Positions 6,765 to 14,840 of a DNA stretch of 43,230 nt are shown one piece after another; within the stretch, counting starts at the first letter, position 1, and each line of letters begins with the position of its first letter. This DNA comes from a virus, in IMG/VR virus record IMGVR_UViG_3300035698_017915, positions 1 through 43,230 of that record. One strand, written 5' to 3'. A program made the translations under genes and the position numbers. The notes beneath the pieces were generated by a model. That model was given only the letters and a program-made list of their open reading frames with translations, did not search any database and was not told the DNA's origin.

Positions 6765-6946
6765 AATCAGATAAAAAATTAACTAGTGTAGATATTTTTA
6801 CGTGGCCAGAGTTTGAGGCTTTTGTTAAACGACTTGGTATAGATACAAAAAGAAAAACACGAAAATTAACTATCATATTAGAAGCAGATCGTATTTCTCC
6901 GTTCGTTAGACATGAGTATTATCCCAATGATGAAAAAGTACAATGA
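6755..6946 (+). CDS. Small protein encoded between the split exonuclease and polymerase genes
   Basis: 63 aa from a GTG with a GGAG ribosome site six bases upstream. It overlaps the exonuclease stop by 10 nt and the polymerase start by 4 nt (ATGA). Sequence begins MAIKSDKK and includes a WPEFEAFVKRLGI helix and a beta-like LTIILEAD strand. I recognise no family. It occupies exactly the point where a single-chain PolA would continue from exonuclease to polymerase, so it might bridge or co-fold with the two halves (inference). Confidence 0.7.
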   Translation: MAIKSDKKLTSVDIFTWPEFEAFVKRLGIDTKRKTRKLTIILEADRISPFVRHEYYPNDEKVQ

Positions 6947-9378
6947 AAGCAACTAACAAGGATGCTTATAGATTGTTGCATGAGGGTGCCATCACCCTTA
7001 GTCAGATGGAGCATAATGGAATATGCATAGATACAGATAGGCTAAACAAGACGATAAGAAAAGTAGGGAAACGAATAGAGAATATAGAAAGGAAGTTGAA
7101 GGAAGATCCTTTCTGGAAAGCATGGAAGAAAAAGTACAAAGCAAAAACAAACATGGCAAGCCGTTATCAGATGGCTGATATGCTTTATGAAGAGATGGGA
7201 TTTGAGAAGGAAGATCAAGACCCAAAAAAGAAAAGGAGTGTGGATGAAAAAGCATTACTTGAAGTAAACACACCTTTTGTGAAACGTTATTTAAGAGTGG
7301 AGAAGTTGAAGAAACTGCAATCCACTTATTTAACAGGGATATTGAGAGAAGTGGTTGACGGTTACCTACATCCATCTTTTAATCTTCATTTGGTACTTAC
7401 CTTTAGATCTTGTGTGGCAAAAGGGACTGTGGTTGAAGTTGTAAGGGATGTGTCCAAAGAACCAAAAGGAAGGCGTATAGAGGATATAAAAGAAGGTGAC
7501 TATGTTTACTGTTATGATGCCAGAAAAAAATTAGCCATAAGAAAAGTGCTGTGGGCTGGAAAAACAGGAAGAAGAAAAGTAATAAGGCTTCATTGGAGTG
7601 CTAGAGGGAAGAAGGGCTTTTTGGATGTGACCCCTGAGCATAAAATAAGAATGGCCAATGGCAAATATGTAAGAGCAGATTCTTTAGAAGGCAGTGACCA
7701 AAGGAGTCTCACAGATAGCAAGCATTCACCAAAATTAAGAACATTAGCAATGGGACGAAATGGGGACAGGGTATATGAAACCAATAATGTAGATGGGATA
7801 TTAGATCATAGGTTAGTTTACACAGAATTAGTTGGTCCTTTAGAAGAGGGTGAAATTATACATCATTCAGATGAAAATCATCTGAATAATAATGTTGATA
7901 ATTTAGTGGTCACCACACTGTCTGAGCATTCTTCTGTGTATCATAATTTTTTTACGGAAGAGGGTAGAAAAAAAGCACAAATTACCAGGGCAGAAAATAT
8001 AAGAAGTGGAAAAATAAAATATCCAAGAGGACAAGACAACCCCCTTTGGATGAAAATAACAAGATATGAGATGCTCCGTCTTTTAGCAGAAAATGGAGGA
8101 AGAGTAACAAAGATTCCACATGATTTTGATGTGATGAAAAAGAAGGCAAGGTTTTTAGGAATTGATTTGCAGAAAGTTAAGGATAGATATAATTCTAAGG
8201 GCATTTTTATTTCTAAGGGACTGCTTATTAGAGCAATGGAAGAGGGCATCAGTGTTGCACAAAAAACCTTGGGGATAAATTATTATAAATTGAGAGAGTT
8301 GTGTGAGTATAGGGATATCCCATTTGAGCGGAGGTGTTGGGCTAATCAGTTTGGTGAATTCATACCAAACAATCACAAGATAGTAAAAATAGAAGAACTT
8401 GAACAAGAGGTTGATGTATATGACATAGAGGTAGAAGAGTGCCATAATTTCATTGCGAATGAAATTTGTGTTCATAATTCTTCCAGTCAGCCAAATTTTC
8501 AAAATATACCTATACGAAATCCTGAGATTGGCAAATTGATACGGTCCTGTTTTGTGCCTAGGCCAGGACGAGTGTTAGTTGAGATTGACTTTGGATCGCT
8601 CGAAGTACGCATATCTGCTTGTATCAATAAAGATCCTAAAATGTTGGATTACTGCCGTGATCCGTCAACAGACATGCATCGAGATATGGCAATGGAATGC
8701 TTCATGTTGGAGCAAGGGGAAATCAGTAAAGAGATTAGATTTTATACCAAGAACCAATTCGTTTTTCCAGAATTTTATGGATCGTACTATGGACAAGTAG
8801 CACCAGACTTGTGGGAAAGTTCGGTACTTGGAGAGTTAAAGACAGCTAGCGATGTGTTGGTGAAAGAGCATCTGAGAACGAAGGGCATTAAACGGTTAGG
8901 GCAGATAAAAGATCCAAATCGTGGAACGTTCATGAGACATATTAAGGAAGTAGAGCGTGCCTTTTGGAATGATAGATTTTCCGTATATGCTCAGTGGAAA
9001 CTTGATTGGATAGAGAAGTACACAAAAAGAGGATGGTTTGAGCTTCCCACAGGGTTTAGAGAATCAGGAGTTTACTCTGACAATGATGTTACAAATCACG
9101 TTATACAGGGGGCTAGTTTTCATTGCTTGCTGTGGAGTTTGATTCAAATACAAAAGGAAATGAATAAGTGTAAGATGGACTCCCTTCTTATTGGCCAAAT
9201 CCATGATTCAGTAATAGCGGATGTACCTGAAAATGAACTGGAAGATTATATCGCATTGGTTCTTAAGACTACGACGGTGGACTTACCACAAGCTTGGAAG
9301 TGGATCATCGTTCCGCTTGAAGTTGAAGTGGAGACTTCACGAACTAACTGGTGGGAAAAAGAGGAGATAAAGGTATGA
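6943..9378 (+). CDS. Family A DNA polymerase, polymerase domain, intein-containing
   Basis: 811 aa before splicing; about 455 aa after. It begins with the PolA palm-proximal segment (LSQMEHNGICID). It then shows TFRS-SSQPNFQNIP (spliced), motif A VEIDFGSLEVR, motif B/O-helix RFYTKNQFVFPEFYG and motif C GQIHDSVIADV, in which HDS replaces the common HDE. It has no exonuclease domain; that activity is in the protein encoded two genes upstream. Together with the clamp and clamp loader it is the likely replicative polymerase. The start ATGA overlaps the 63-aa gene; the stop overlaps the next ATG. Confidence 0.93.
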   Translation: MKATNKDAYRLLHEGAITLSQMEHNGICIDTDRLNKTIRKVGKRIENIERKLKEDPFWKAWKKKYKAKTNMASRYQMADMLYEEMGFEKEDQDPKKKRSVDEKALLEVNTPFVKRYLRVEKLKKLQSTYLTGILREVVDGYLHPSFNLHLVLTFRSCVAKGTVVEVVRDVSKEPKGRRIEDIKEGDYVYCYDARKKLAIRKVLWAGKTGRRKVIRLHWSARGKKGFLDVTPEHKIRMANGKYVRADSLEGSDQRSLTDSKHSPKLRTLAMGRNGDRVYETNNVDGILDHRLVYTELVGPLEEGEIIHHSDENHLNNNVDNLVVTTLSEHSSVYHNFFTEEGRKKAQITRAENIRSGKIKYPRGQDNPLWMKITRYEMLRLLAENGGRVTKIPHDFDVMKKKARFLGIDLQKVKDRYNSKGIFISKGLLIRAMEEGISVAQKTLGINYYKLRELCEYRDIPFERRCWANQFGEFIPNNHKIVKIEELEQEVDVYDIEVEECHNFIANEICVHNSSSQPNFQNIPIRNPEIGKLIRSCFVPRPGRVLVEIDFGSLEVRISACINKDPKMLDYCRDPSTDMHRDMAMECFMLEQGEISKEIRFYTKNQFVFPEFYGSYYGQVAPDLWESSVLGELKTASDVLVKEHLRTKGIKRLGQIKDPNRGTFMRHIKEVERAFWNDRFSVYAQWKLDWIEKYTKRGWFELPTGFRESGVYSDNDVTNHVIQGASFHCLLWSLIQIQKEMNKCKMDSLLIGQIHDSVIADVPENELEDYIALVLKTTTVDLPQAWKWIIVPLEVEVETSRTNWWEKEEIKV
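7411..8478 (+). mobile_element. Intein 2, in PolA, with HNH homing endonuclease domain
   Basis: 356 codons from Cys (CVAKGTVVEVV) to CVHN, followed by Ser as the +1 nucleophile. Block A, block B (DVTPEHKIR), F (VDVYDIEVEECHNFIAN) and G (VHN) are present. The middle holds an HNH core: DHRLVYTEL, IIHHSDENHLNNNVDNLV and SEHSSVYH. The helical region after it may bind DNA. It interrupts the conserved region just before SSSQPNFQNIP, near the polymerase active site, a typical conserved intein site. Confidence 0.93.
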
Positions 9379-9784: not shown

Positions 9785-12004
9785 ATGGAACTGTATAAGA
9801 AACACCGGCCAAAATCTTTTGATGATATGGTAGGGAACAGTGGTTCTCTGGATAGTCTCACTGCTTTTTTTGAGAGGGATGAGGTTCCTCATTTTATATT
9901 GCTGAGTGGTCCCAGCGGTACAGGGAAGACAACTGTAGCCAGAATTCTTAGAAAGAAGTTGAAATGTGGAGATATTGATTTCAAAGAATTGAACACTGCT
10001 GATTTTCGTGGCATTGATATGGTGCGGGAGATCAGAACCAATATGAATCTCAGTCCTGTTAGTGGAAAGACTAGGGTGTGGTTACTAGATGAGTGTTTTT
10101 CTTCTGGAACATTAGTAAGAACCCCTTTAGGAATGGTTAAGATTAAATCATTAGTAGAAGGAGATGTGTTAAACAATATAGAAGGAAAATCTGTTGTTGA
10201 AAAAGTGTTTAAGAATAAAATTTCTTTAGACAGGGTTGTGAAGATTCATTTTTCAGATGGCTCATTTGTGTATACCACTAAGCAGCATAGATTTTTAAGT
10301 CAAAATGGGTGGTATGAAGCATCTGGATTGGAGAAACAGGATTGCGTGTTCAGCAAATTTTGTTATATTGATAAGACCCCTAACAAAAGGAGTCTTTTTG
10401 ATGTTGAAAATTTGCGAAATCTGCGGAAAAGAATTCAATGTTCCTATGAAGAAGCAGGTGACTTGTTCCCGACAATGTGGGTACAAGCTGAAGATAAAAA
10501 GATACGGAAAGGATGTACATGGAATAAGGAAGAAGAATCTCCCAAAAGGAAAATGCCTTTATTGTGGAAAGGATTTTGTCTCAACTCAGTATGGCAAAAG
10601 TCAGTCAAAATGTTGTTCCAAGTCATGTGCTGGGAAGTTGAGACAGAAAAAGGAAGGGCATGGGAAAACAGAAAAACGAAAATGTTTGGAGTGTGGGAAA
10701 GAATTTGTAGTATTGCAATCGGATCGAAAAAGATATTGCAATCAATCTTGTGTTGGAAAAAACAAGATGAAAAGAAAAGAGTTTCGGGCAAAGATACACA
10801 ACGAGATTACCAGAAAAAAAATATCCGAATCAAAAAAGAAATATGCACAAACAGAAAAAGGGAAACAACAAGCAAAAGAATTAGCAGAAAAAAAAATGGG
10901 TGTGTCTATGCCCAAATGGGCTGTGGAGAAAGCCATGAAGGTGAAGGAAGAGAATGGAACTCTACATGTATGGTTGGGGGAAAGAGGAGGGAATGGGAAG
11001 CATACGAAGCCACAGTTGGTGTTGTGGGAAGAATTAAAAAAGAAAGGATGGGAATTGGAAATAGCAGTTCTCACGTTAGTGAAACCAGGGAATGGTTATC
11101 CAACTTGTTACAAGGTGGATATAGGTCATCAGGAATTGATGATAGGGATAGAAGTAGATGGGAAAGGGCATCGGTGGAAAAAGAATGTATTGAAAGATTC
11201 AAAAAAGACAAAGCTTTTAAGGAAGTTGGGGTGGACCGTGTGGAGGTTTACGAACGAGGAAATAATGACGAATCTTTCAGAGGTGTTATTGGTGATAGAG
11301 AAAAAACTCAAGGTTATGTAGAGTTTTATGATTTACAAGTATCTGGTCATCCTTCTTATTTTGCAAATGGGGTTCCAGTACATAACTGCCACCAATTGTC
11401 GTCACAGGGGATGCAGTCTTTTTTGAAGCTGTTGGAAGATACTCCCGATCATGTGTACTTCATTTTTGCTACTACTGATCCACAAAAATTGATTAAAACA
11501 ATACGCACAAGGGCAACTGAATTTCAGTTAAAGTCTCTAAAAAATTCAGAGATGGTGTATTTGTTAAACGGTGTGTTAAAGGCTGAAGAAAAAGAAATAG
11601 CGGAAGACGTTGTAGATAAGATTGCGGAAGCGTCTGAGGGGTCACCACGTAAGGCTCTGGTGATCCTGAACCAAGTGATTGATTTGGTTGGGGAGGATGC
11701 CCAACTCGAAGCCATAACGGGTGCTGTGGCTTCTGAGGAGGCAATCACGGTTGCAAGAGCCTTGTTGAATCCCAAGACAACGTGGGGAGTTATGGCCAAG
11801 ATCCTCAAAGGCATAGATGGATTACCTGACCAAGCTGAAGGAATCCGTTGGTTGGTGTTGAGTTACATGTCTACAGTAGCCTTAAACAATGCACGTACAG
11901 CAGCACAAGCTGTTAATATCATAGATGTTTTTTCAGAAACTTTTTGGAATACCAAGCAAGCGGGCTTGATTTCTGCTTGCCATGAGATAATTTCTGGAGA
12001 TTAG
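9785..12004 (+). CDS. Clamp loader ATPase, DnaX/RFC-like, intein-containing
   Basis: 739 aa before splicing, about 308 after. It starts ELYKKHRPKSFDDMVGN, the DnaX/RFC signature. Walker A is GPSGTGKT (residues 42-49), Walker B VWLLDE, then (after splicing) CHQLSSQGMQSFLKLLEDTP and sensor-1/SRC-like IFATTDPQKL and IRTRATEF. C-terminal helices follow. It would open and load the clamp encoded at 3,377. The AAAGGAG ribosome site precedes the ATG by five bases. The DE-C junction of Walker B is interrupted by an intein, so ATPase activity depends on splicing. Confidence 0.92.
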   Translation: MELYKKHRPKSFDDMVGNSGSLDSLTAFFERDEVPHFILLSGPSGTGKTTVARILRKKLKCGDIDFKELNTADFRGIDMVREIRTNMNLSPVSGKTRVWLLDECFSSGTLVRTPLGMVKIKSLVEGDVLNNIEGKSVVEKVFKNKISLDRVVKIHFSDGSFVYTTKQHRFLSQNGWYEASGLEKQDCVFSKFCYIDKTPNKRSLFDVENLRNLRKRIQCSYEEAGDLFPTMWVQAEDKKIRKGCTWNKEEESPKRKMPLLWKGFCLNSVWQKSVKMLFQVMCWEVETEKGRAWENRKTKMFGVWERICSIAIGSKKILQSILCWKKQDEKKRVSGKDTQRDYQKKNIRIKKEICTNRKRETTSKRISRKKNGCVYAQMGCGESHEGEGREWNSTCMVGGKRREWEAYEATVGVVGRIKKERMGIGNSSSHVSETREWLSNLLQGGYRSSGIDDRDRSRWERASVEKECIERFKKDKAFKEVGVDRVEVYERGNNDESFRGVIGDREKTQGYVEFYDLQVSGHPSYFANGVPVHNCHQLSSQGMQSFLKLLEDTPDHVYFIFATTDPQKLIKTIRTRATEFQLKSLKNSEMVYLLNGVLKAEEKEIAEDVVDKIAEASEGSPRKALVILNQVIDLVGEDAQLEAITGAVASEEAITVARALLNPKTTWGVMAKILKGIDGLPDQAEGIRWLVLSYMSTVALNNARTAAQAVNIIDVFSETFWNTKQAGLISACHEIISGD
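10094..11386 (+). mobile_element. Intein 3, in the clamp loader Walker B, with an out-of-frame endonuclease gene inside
   Basis: 431 codons from Cys (CFSSGTLVRTPLG) to PVHN, followed by the extein Cys. Blocks A (VEGDVL), B (TTKQHRFLS) and F/G (VEFYDLQVSGHPSYFANG, VHN) are in the clamp-loader frame. The stretch from about 10,400 to 11,320 in this frame is open but has no recognisable domain: it is rich in Lys, Arg, Trp and Cys. The homing endonuclease of this intein is instead encoded in the next frame (10401-11321). Confidence 0.9.
10401..11321 (+). CDS. Vsr-like (EDxHD type) homing endonuclease nested out of frame in intein 3
   Basis: 306 aa, ATG at 10401 with ribosome site AAAGGAG eight bases upstream. 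It has three consecutive zinc-ribbon units (CEICGKEF...CSRQC, CLYCGKDF...CSKSC, CLECGKEF...CNQSC) and a basic helical linker. The C-terminal nuclease domain has KPQLVLWEEL, YKVDIG, IEVDGKGH (Glu251, Asp253, His257), then D..K and KLGWTVWRFTNEEI. The pattern fits the Vsr-related phage homing endonucleases. The whole gene overlaps the open clamp-loader/intein frame by +1, so each base serves two proteins. It ends just before intein block F. Confidence 0.85.
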   Translation: MLKICEICGKEFNVPMKKQVTCSRQCGYKLKIKRYGKDVHGIRKKNLPKGKCLYCGKDFVSTQYGKSQSKCCSKSCAGKLRQKKEGHGKTEKRKCLECGKEFVVLQSDRKRYCNQSCVGKNKMKRKEFRAKIHNEITRKKISESKKKYAQTEKGKQQAKELAEKKMGVSMPKWAVEKAMKVKEENGTLHVWLGERGGNGKHTKPQLVLWEELKKKGWELEIAVLTLVKPGNGYPTCYKVDIGHQELMIGIEVDGKGHRWKKNVLKDSKKTKLLRKLGWTVWRFTNEEIMTNLSEVLLVIEKKLKVM

Positions 12005-13461: not shown

Positions 13462-13618
13462 TCCTATAAGTGTACTTGTCAACATGGTTGGATGTTGGTT
13501 ATTGCTATTGATATGTGCTCCTTTTGTTGTATATTACGCAAGCAAGATAGCATCACTAGGATGGCACAAGGGTAAGTTATTTTTTGAGCAACGTTATTTG
13601 GAGAAAAAAGATGAGTAA
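13454..13618 (+). CDS. Small membrane protein
   Basis: 54 aa from a GTG at 13454 that overlaps the end of the mediator gene. One hydrophobic segment at residues ~7-28 (VLVNMVGCWLLLLICAPFVV), then a charged tail ending EKKDE. The stop overlaps the SSB start by eight nt. Unknown function; tight coupling supports a real gene. Confidence 0.6.
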   Translation: MNDPISVLVNMVGCWLLLLICAPFVVYYASKIASLGWHKGKLFFEQRYLEKKDE

Positions 13619-14840
13619 GACTCGAAGTAGTACAAAGCGTAAGGAACGGAAGCGAGCAGGAAGTGGTGGACGGGACAAGTTTGCCCAGTCCCGTGGACGT
13701 AACACTATCAAGATCCCTGATGGTGTTGAGTTGTTTCGGCCACAAGAGAAATCTTATAGGTTGGATTTCCTTCTATATGAAGTGGGTGAGGGCAATAAGT
13801 GTGCTGCTCCTGGTTCATGGTATTACGAGCGTACTTTTTACACACATCGCATTGGTGCGGACAATCGTTATGTGATTTGTCCTGCCAAGACATTTGAAAA
13901 ACCATGTCCTGTATGTGAAGAACTTTCTAGGGTTATGAAAGATCCTGATGCAAGTGATGACGAAGAGAAAAGCTTGCGTGCTAGTCAAAGGCAATTGTGG
14001 TTGATCATCGACCGGGAAGAAAAGGAAAAGGGTATTCAGATCTTTGAACATTCTTTCCATCAATTTGGCCGGTTGTTGGATGAATTGCGTCGTGATGCTG
14101 ATGAGGATGAGGATCATGTATCAAACTTTGATGATCCTGAAAGTGGTGCTTGTCTGAAGGTTAAATTCAGGAAGAATCCTCCGTTTGGTATTGAGACTTC
14201 TTCTATTGATTTTCGTCCACGCCCGAAGGGAATTGATGAAGAGTTGTTGAATCATGGGATTTGCCTGGATGATATTTTGGTAGAGACTCCTTATGATGAG
14301 ATGAAGAAGATTTTTTATCAAATCACTGATGGGGGAGATGAAGATGGAGATGAGGGTGAGGATGAGCCCAAGTCTAAGTCCAAGCAGGGACGTACCAGGA
14401 AATCTTCTGGTGCGAAGTCCAGGACTAAAAAGGAGGATGAGGATGAGGATGAAAATCCAGCCAAGAAGAAGGGCTTGCATAAAGGCAAGGTTGTAGAGTT
14501 TGAAGATCTACGGATGGAGATCACACATATCAGTGGGGATGGAACCAGTCTAAAGCTTGAAGATGAGGATGGGGAAACTTATGCGGCTGTAGGTGTTGAT
14601 GAAATTGGGGAATGGGATGATTCTGACGATGACAAGGATGACGATATCCCTTTTGAAGAAGAGGAAAAGGAAGAGGAGAAGCCTAAGCCTAAACGTAGTA
14701 GTTCAAAGTCTAAGTCAAAGACTGCTTCTAAAAAGAAGAAGGTTGTAGAACCTGAACCTGAAGAAGACGATGATGATGACGACGATGACGATGACGATGA
14801 TGATGATCTTGAATGGGATGAAGACGACGACGATGATTGA
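13611..14840 (+). CDS. Single-stranded DNA-binding protein, gp32-like with long acidic tail
   Basis: 409 aa from the ATG at 13611 (GGAG seven bases upstream). A basic N-terminus is followed by an OB-type core with zinc ligands (CPAKTFEKPCPVCE) and FEHSFHQF/FRPRPKG strands, as in phage gp32-type SSBs. The C-terminus is long: alternating acidic and KSKS-type basic low-complexity segments around a small folded insert (residues ~280-330), ending in a run of more than ten Asp. Acidic tails of SSBs recruit partner proteins. It would coat ssDNA for the helicase, polymerase and UvsX system around it. Confidence 0.85.
   Translation: MSKTRSSTKRKERKRAGSGGRDKFAQSRGRNTIKIPDGVELFRPQEKSYRLDFLLYEVGEGNKCAAPGSWYYERTFYTHRIGADNRYVICPAKTFEKPCPVCEELSRVMKDPDASDDEEKSLRASQRQLWLIIDREEKEKGIQIFEHSFHQFGRLLDELRRDADEDEDHVSNFDDPESGACLKVKFRKNPPFGIETSSIDFRPRPKGIDEELLNHGICLDDILVETPYDEMKKIFYQITDGGDEDGDEGEDEPKSKSKQGRTRKSSGAKSRTKKEDEDEDENPAKKKGLHKGKVVEFEDLRMEITHISGDGTSLKLEDEDGETYAAVGVDEIGEWDDSDDDKDDDIPFEEEEKEEEKPKPKRSSSKSKSKTASKKKKVVEPEPEEDDDDDDDDDDDDDDLEWDEDDDDD

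Follow-up and report, generated by a model that had tools for sequence, protein, structure and literature searches.

In the fractured genes of Dassa et al. 2009, which mostly belong to phage replication, split inteins are reportedly accompanied by a free-standing Vsr-like endonuclease. Conventional mobile inteins instead carry an in-frame LAGLIDADG or HNH endonuclease between the two halves of a Hint splicing domain and are inserted at active-site motifs, while a further type of homing endonuclease, the EDxHD type, is exemplified by the intron-encoded I-Bth0305I (PDB 3r3p). The ShiLan element, described in 2025, is an out-of-frame HNH endonuclease that has a methylase as host, contains no splicing domain, uses a GTG start without a detectable ribosome site, and is expected by its authors to be retained in the protein (PMC11855218). 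A literature search for alternate-frame intein endonucleases returned only ShiLan and a genome announcement mentioning an out-of-frame HNH endonuclease in a methylase; the literature that could be searched yielded no description of an overprinted endonuclease in an intact intein.

Here we analyze a clamp-loader gene in a viral DNA of 43,230 nucleotides (IMG/VR record IMGVR_UViG_3300035698_017915, in the following called the window), where an intein is overlapped by an endonuclease gene in another reading frame (Table 1). Judged from sequences and structure models, this is very probably a mobile intein with a homing endonuclease that is overprinted and not fused, and for which splicing, separate translation, cutting and homing are presumed. 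As in the fractured genes, the intein is associated with a Vsr/EDxHD-like endonuclease gene that is not fused to it, but here the host gene and the intein are unsplit and the host frame is kept open across the endonuclease by selection. The alternate-frame endonuclease, the stop-free host frame, the disjunct distribution and the AlphaFold models without a nuclease in the host frame are all reminiscent of ShiLan, whereas the intact intein, the EDxHD nuclease, the usual presence of a Shine-Dalgarno sequence and the number of copies (121 non-redundant) are not, and the relative frame of ShiLan is, by its coordinates, the other one. The Hint domain, the position of the nuclease between its halves and the insertion in an active-site motif are shared with conventional mobile inteins, such as the one in the PolA gene of the window, but the nuclease lies in another frame and is predicted to be a separate protein. 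Its catalytic fold and conserved acidic and histidine residues are those of I-Bth0305I and the DUF559/Vsr proteins; in contrast to the intron-encoded I-Bth0305I, the nucleases found here contain zinc ribbons and are encoded over an intein. We therefore regard the arrangement as close to a new class, although the out-of-frame insertion of an endonuclease has a precedent in ShiLan.

Table 1 Features of the overprinted intein locus, with positions in the window.
Feature	Position	Strand	Basis or remark
Clamp-loader small subunit gene (DnaX/delta'-like AAA+ ATPase), host	9785..12004	+	open frame, Pfam, IMG/VR homologues
N-extein, last residues ...VWLLDE at Walker B	9785..10093	+	
Intein, 431 residues in host frame, Cys1 to HN/C	10094..11386	+	Pfam and junctions
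Hint splicing domain, N-terminal half (intein residues 1-85)	10094..10348	+	AlphaFold2
Stop-free linker in intein frame, mostly disordered by prediction, amino-acid constraint not detectable	10349..11173	+	
Shine-Dalgarno AAAAGGAG, 8 nt upstream of nuclease ATG	10385..10392	+	
Homing endonuclease gene, 306 aa, own ATG and TAG	10401..11321	+	+1 relative to intein frame
Three zinc-ribbon-like CxxC...C motifs (nuclease residues 5-26, 52-76, 95-117)	10413..10751	+	translation, conserved cysteines
Nuclease catalytic domain (residues 203-306)	11007..11318	+	invariant residues, model, fold match
Hint splicing domain, C-terminal half (intein residues 361-431)	11174..11386	+	AlphaFold2
Doubly coding tail: intein residues 361-408 and nuclease residues 259-306	11174..11318	+	both confidently folded (AlphaFold2)
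C-extein, first residues CHQL	11387..12001	+	

The clamp-loader frame was originally predicted to be stop-free and to have clear intein ends, and the open reading frame, the Pfam matches and the mapped junctions all agree with this. The precursor of 739 aa contains zero internal stops through the intein, so that host gene and intein share one open frame in the window and are not distributed over separate ORFs as in a fractured gene. Clamp-loader domains flank a single Intein_splicing match (residues 134-534 of the precursor), and splicing would leave a clamp loader of 308 aa. The junctions read LLDE/CFSSG ... VHN/CHQL (slashes mark the intein ends), and all residues of a class 1 Hint-type intein are present, namely Cys1 (CFSSG), the TxxH block TTKQH and VHN/C. 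The Hint fold is supported by Pfam (PF14890, 1e-10) and by the AlphaFold2 model, for which Foldseek gave the gp41-1 intein as the closest solved structure (6qaz, E 1e-7). The gp41-1 intein reportedly belongs to the fractured-gene set of Dassa et al. 2009. The pLDDT values of the model are about 93-97 per block in the N-terminal Hint half (79 in the final block) and about 82-96 per block in the C-terminal half, and mostly below 50 in the middle (about residues 90-358), with the exception of a helix of low-to-moderate confidence near residues 156-226. The host frame had been described as structureless from approximately 10,400 to 11,320, which fits most of this middle part but not its end: the C-terminal half of the intein starts at about 11174, and the last ~48 codons of the nuclease therefore also encode structured intein. 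A second intein is present in the DNA polymerase I (PolA) gene of the window (6943-9378), and here an HNH_3 domain is encoded in the intein frame itself.

An RNA intron or a ribosomal bypass element would be another conceivable carrier of the endonuclease, as group I introns can contain free ORFs of the I-Bth0305I nuclease type (PMC3943268). It is extremely unlikely here, because a Hint domain with its splice residues sits at the exact ends of the insert and because an RNA intron would not require a stop-free host frame. Scans of the window for Rfam families and tRNAs gave no match, Rfam introns included, which likewise argues against an intron.

The +1 frame had been claimed to encode a zinc-ribbon and Vsr-like endonuclease of 306 aa with its own ribosome site, and each part of this was borne out, by the Shine-Dalgarno sequence, the CxxC motifs, the Pfam match and the folds listed below. 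When both translations were searched against databases, Intein_splicing was found in the host frame and DUF559 (Pfam, 3e-10, residues 237-303) in the nuclease frame only. The reading frame ends at the TAG codon at 11319-11321. Residues D240, E251, D253, H257 and D266 are invariant, the last four of them across 32 sequences, and the AlphaFold2 model is confident through the catalytic C-terminus. Foldseek, in line with a profile search, matched it to I-Bth0305I (3r3p), 3hrl and Vsr (1vsr), with 3r3p and 1vsr among the best, and the protein thus combines a Vsr-type catalytic fold with the conserved E, D, H and D of the EDxHD/Vsr-like nucleases.

No relatives were retrieved when the scans started from the complete precursor or from one nuclease sequence; they were recovered with the spliced extein and then with nuclease alignments of two and of ten sequences. 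The spliced clamp loader found 31 homologues in IMG/VR, and in 30 of these no intein was detected. The remaining one (L031) has the element with 44% nuclease identity, likewise out of frame, in an open host frame of 677 aa. The nuclease is present in 40 of 50,697 phage records, among them Vibrio phages including CP-T1, Pseudomonas phage MR14 and Corynebacterium phage phi673. In all eight cultured-phage records that we examined (L002-L005, L304-L307) it lies out of frame in an uninterrupted helicase-like gene, and in none of the eight is it annotated, which illustrates how the possible appearance of an intein gene changes: pipelines call a single long gene for a helicase or clamp loader and overlook the nuclease. 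A gp41-1 search of cultured phages listed inteins in terminase, PhoH and other phage proteins, and the overprinted element was absent from that list. The host proteins among those tested are clamp loaders or SF2/SNF2 helicases, and the insertion site is nearly always in Walker B, between DE and C (or S). Among the 119 loci with mapped junctions, HN or SN precedes the C or S. Position +1 is occupied by C in 112 loci and by S in 7, and frequently by A, T or L where a clamp-loader site is empty.

For an unbiased statement about the host frame we used the 180 fetched loci in which the nuclease scored at least 75 bits, and which were taken without selecting on openness. Zero host-frame stops were found in 174 of them, and the relative frame was always identical; the remaining six comprise three fractured inteins and three nuclease genes that stand free. 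Each of the 174 loci without stops thus has its endonuclease in another frame than the intein, where a conventional intein would have it fused in frame. Relatives with an in-frame endonuclease, which would have spoken against the original prediction, were sought and not found: the strong-match relatives with unsplit inteins are all out of frame, the arrangement holds in such relatives down to about 40% nuclease identity, cultured phages included, and the nuclease family was not found fused in frame in any intact intein. One sequence alone would look the same locally if compensating sequencing or assembly errors were masking an ordinary in-frame intein endonuclease. The probability of such errors is practically negligible, as 174 loci show the same frame relation, some of them in cultured phages from several groups that were sequenced independently, and as the nuclease has its own ribosome site, start and stop; the independent relatives refute this explanation.

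It is clear that the open host frame is not a matter of chance, which was ruled out by synonymous permutation. Permuting the synonymous codons of the window nuclease gives 17.4 expected stops in the intein frame, where 0 are observed, in agreement with the predicted dual coding in which one frame is forced to avoid stops; the third frame over the nuclease gene has 28 stops. Among the 305 codon junctions of the gene there are 61 T-ending codons and 114 followers beginning with AA, AG or GA, and the two never coincide (hypergeometric P 5e-15). At positions that allow a T-ending synonym, T is used in 0 of 67 at-risk cases compared to 61 of 124 safe ones. The statistics were extended to 121 non-redundant overprinted loci, collapsed to <95% identity because some loci share a contig, and here 1209 host-frame stops were expected and 0 observed, with P<0.01 in 113 of the 121 loci individually. 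As these 121 were picked for openness, the count of 174 out of 180 is the unbiased figure. The N-exteins served as control and showed 570 stops against 589 expected, and in free-standing homologues of the nuclease the observed stops also match the expectation.

Every amino acid with a T-ending codon has another codon too. Reasoning from the genetic code, any host-frame stop in the observed frame relation needs a T at the third position of a nuclease codon and can be removed synonymously, whereas in the alternative relation a Met followed by a codon starting with A makes TGA, which is often unavoidable. The possibility of removing all host-frame stops synonymously would explain why the same frame relation is always used.

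Substitution patterns were determined in both frames for 21 non-overlapping pairs. In the nuclease body dN/dS is 0.16, compared to 1.43 for the intein frame over the same part. Over the final 32 codons dN/dS amounts to 0.48 in the nuclease frame and 0.83 in the intein frame, the latter being just moderately below 1 in this wider pair set, and pS in the nuclease frame drops from 0.65 in the body to 0.30. A narrower set of 17 pairs gave 0.58 and 0.53, respectively, for the last codons. Consequently, the absence of stops is the only constraint on the middle of the intein frame, whereas both proteins are encoded at its end. The proposed dual coding at the codon level is therefore seen in the tail, and the body is constrained in the nuclease frame only. 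The hydropathy of the linker is slightly below that of permuted sequences (mean z -1.2), which is too weak to claim selection. To our knowledge, the overlap of about 250-300 codons is among the longest well-supported same-strand overlaps. It stays open among phages with about 40% nuclease identity, and the selection can be measured codon by codon.

A Shine-Dalgarno match of at least 5 nt precedes the likely nuclease start in 59% of the loci, compared to 7% at internal starts, which supports that the nuclease is made as a separate protein by internal initiation. Some loci, mostly helicase copies, have no clear Shine-Dalgarno sequence, and another route to the nuclease may be used there. Programmed frameshifting from the intein frame would produce the nuclease fused to the N-extein and N-intein with no internal initiation. 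Such a shift is geometrically possible, the stop-to-stop ORFs of the nuclease frame starting upstream of the proposed starts (at 10299 in the window), and the missing strong Shine-Dalgarno sequences in some helicase copies would fit with it. Frameshifting is nevertheless unlikely, considering that a well-spaced Shine-Dalgarno sequence and ATG are conserved in most clamp-loader copies, in addition to the overall enrichment, and that it cannot restore the C-terminal half because translation of the nuclease terminates at a stop codon of its own.

Three loci (L171, L197 and L219) are fractured helicases with split inteins, carrying the same nuclease and numerous stops in the host frame. The N-half terminates past the N-intein, the C-half is encoded by an ORF of its own for which there are candidate starts, and the nuclease overlaps both halves in the frame relation of the overprinted loci. 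Recoding of stop codons was ruled out, as all three stop codons occur in these loci. The existence of truly split forms, in which stops occur and the C-half has a candidate start, could be taken to mean that the open frame is incidental also in the other loci, i.e. that the intein is split, with separately initiated halves, and that full-length reading is unused. We find this very unlikely, because the unsplit loci have 0 stops where about 10 are expected in each, while the split relatives are at the neutral level with 25 observed stops against 26 (L197) and 25 (L219) expected. Openness is selected, and reading through the intein therefore matters.

In the unrooted nuclease tree the three fractured loci form one clade (100/100) among the overprinted sequences. 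The simplest history would be that an overprinted intein lost the selection on its host frame and left a fractured gene, and the split-intein form appears to be an escape product of the overprinted arrangement. On this unrooted tree, the direction would presumably be from overprinted to fractured. A specific path by which an intact intein could become split is thereby proposed, and makes the question of how split inteins originated testable. The free-standing nucleases in the set (L182, L189 and L191) have no intein match. In L189 (3956-4940) the nuclease lies immediately upstream of, and overlaps, a helicase gene, and the helicase reading is broken near the DE site, possibly because the gene is naturally split or because of an error in the assembly.

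Empty sites were found in close relatives. The Corynebacterium phages phi673 and phi674, which have the same laboratory C. glutamicum strain as host, differ at the site by an insert of exactly 906 bp, and the flanks are 99% identical. The N-exteins match at 377 of 378 bases and the C-exteins at 1211 of 1227, and the mismatches cluster in the first 30 bases past the insert, where DE/V becomes DE/C. The same applies to CP-T1 and vB_VchM-138, with a filled and an empty site, respectively, and a change from DE/A to DE/C. Within one group of Vibrio phages the same site is empty in PS17B.1, contains the overprinted intein in 1.194.O and K391, and contains a mini-intein of 150 residues without nuclease in 268E42.1 (L311) and K459 (L312). 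In the nuclease tree, the helicase-hosted copy L111 nests in a group that is otherwise made up of clamp-loader copies and has support, which agrees with horizontal movement, as such movement predicts this placement. From the exact empty sites and the local cluster of mismatches, the nuclease may cut intein-less alleles site-specifically, and phi673 and phi674, differing by the insert at the site in a common host, are a ready homing assay. In Vibrio phage PS65A.1 (L310) the helicase has two inteins, a long one in the P-loop (GGGK/C ... HN/T) with an apparent in-frame LAGLIDADG-type endonuclease, and a mini-intein at DE/CH.

Based on the comparisons above, the element may function as follows. 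The ribosome would read the entire clamp-loader frame through the intein, and the two Hint halves at the intein ends would fold together, with the linker, free of stops and largely unstructured, between them, and splice the clamp loader. Ribosomes that initiate anew at the internal Shine-Dalgarno sequence and ATG would make the separate EDxHD (Vsr-like) zinc-ribbon endonuclease from the other frame, and this could cut intein-less alleles at the Walker B codons (DE/CH), whereupon repair would copy the element in. The host frame would be kept by selection against stops alone in the body, whereas its last ~48 codons would truly serve both proteins. Two meanings had been suggested for the arrangement, a stage in which the intein captured a free-standing endonuclease gene or a way to express the nuclease independently of splicing. 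The data favour the latter, in the form of a stable and widespread arrangement that permits nuclease translation independent of splicing, over a transient capture stage. On the whole we find it likely that phage mobile inteins with an overlapping homing endonuclease gene are an unrecognised and widespread class, always using the frame in which stops can be removed, and giving rise to split inteins and fractured genes when the selection is lost.

Some further observations were made during the analysis. An Azospirillum canadense contig (L228) has an overprinted intein within a very long open frame of a bacterial genome contig, and is probably a prophage or an integrated element. In a cyanobacterial methylase (L240:3430-4900), DUF559 is matched weakly and shares its frame with a C-intein; as the N-half sits in another frame, the case looks broken and unrelated, and has probably decayed. 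Downstream of the clamp-loader gene, the window encodes a gp32-like single-stranded DNA-binding protein (13584-14840) with a very long tail of poly-Asp/Glu and Lys, and a similar tail is also found in L031 (6278-7483).
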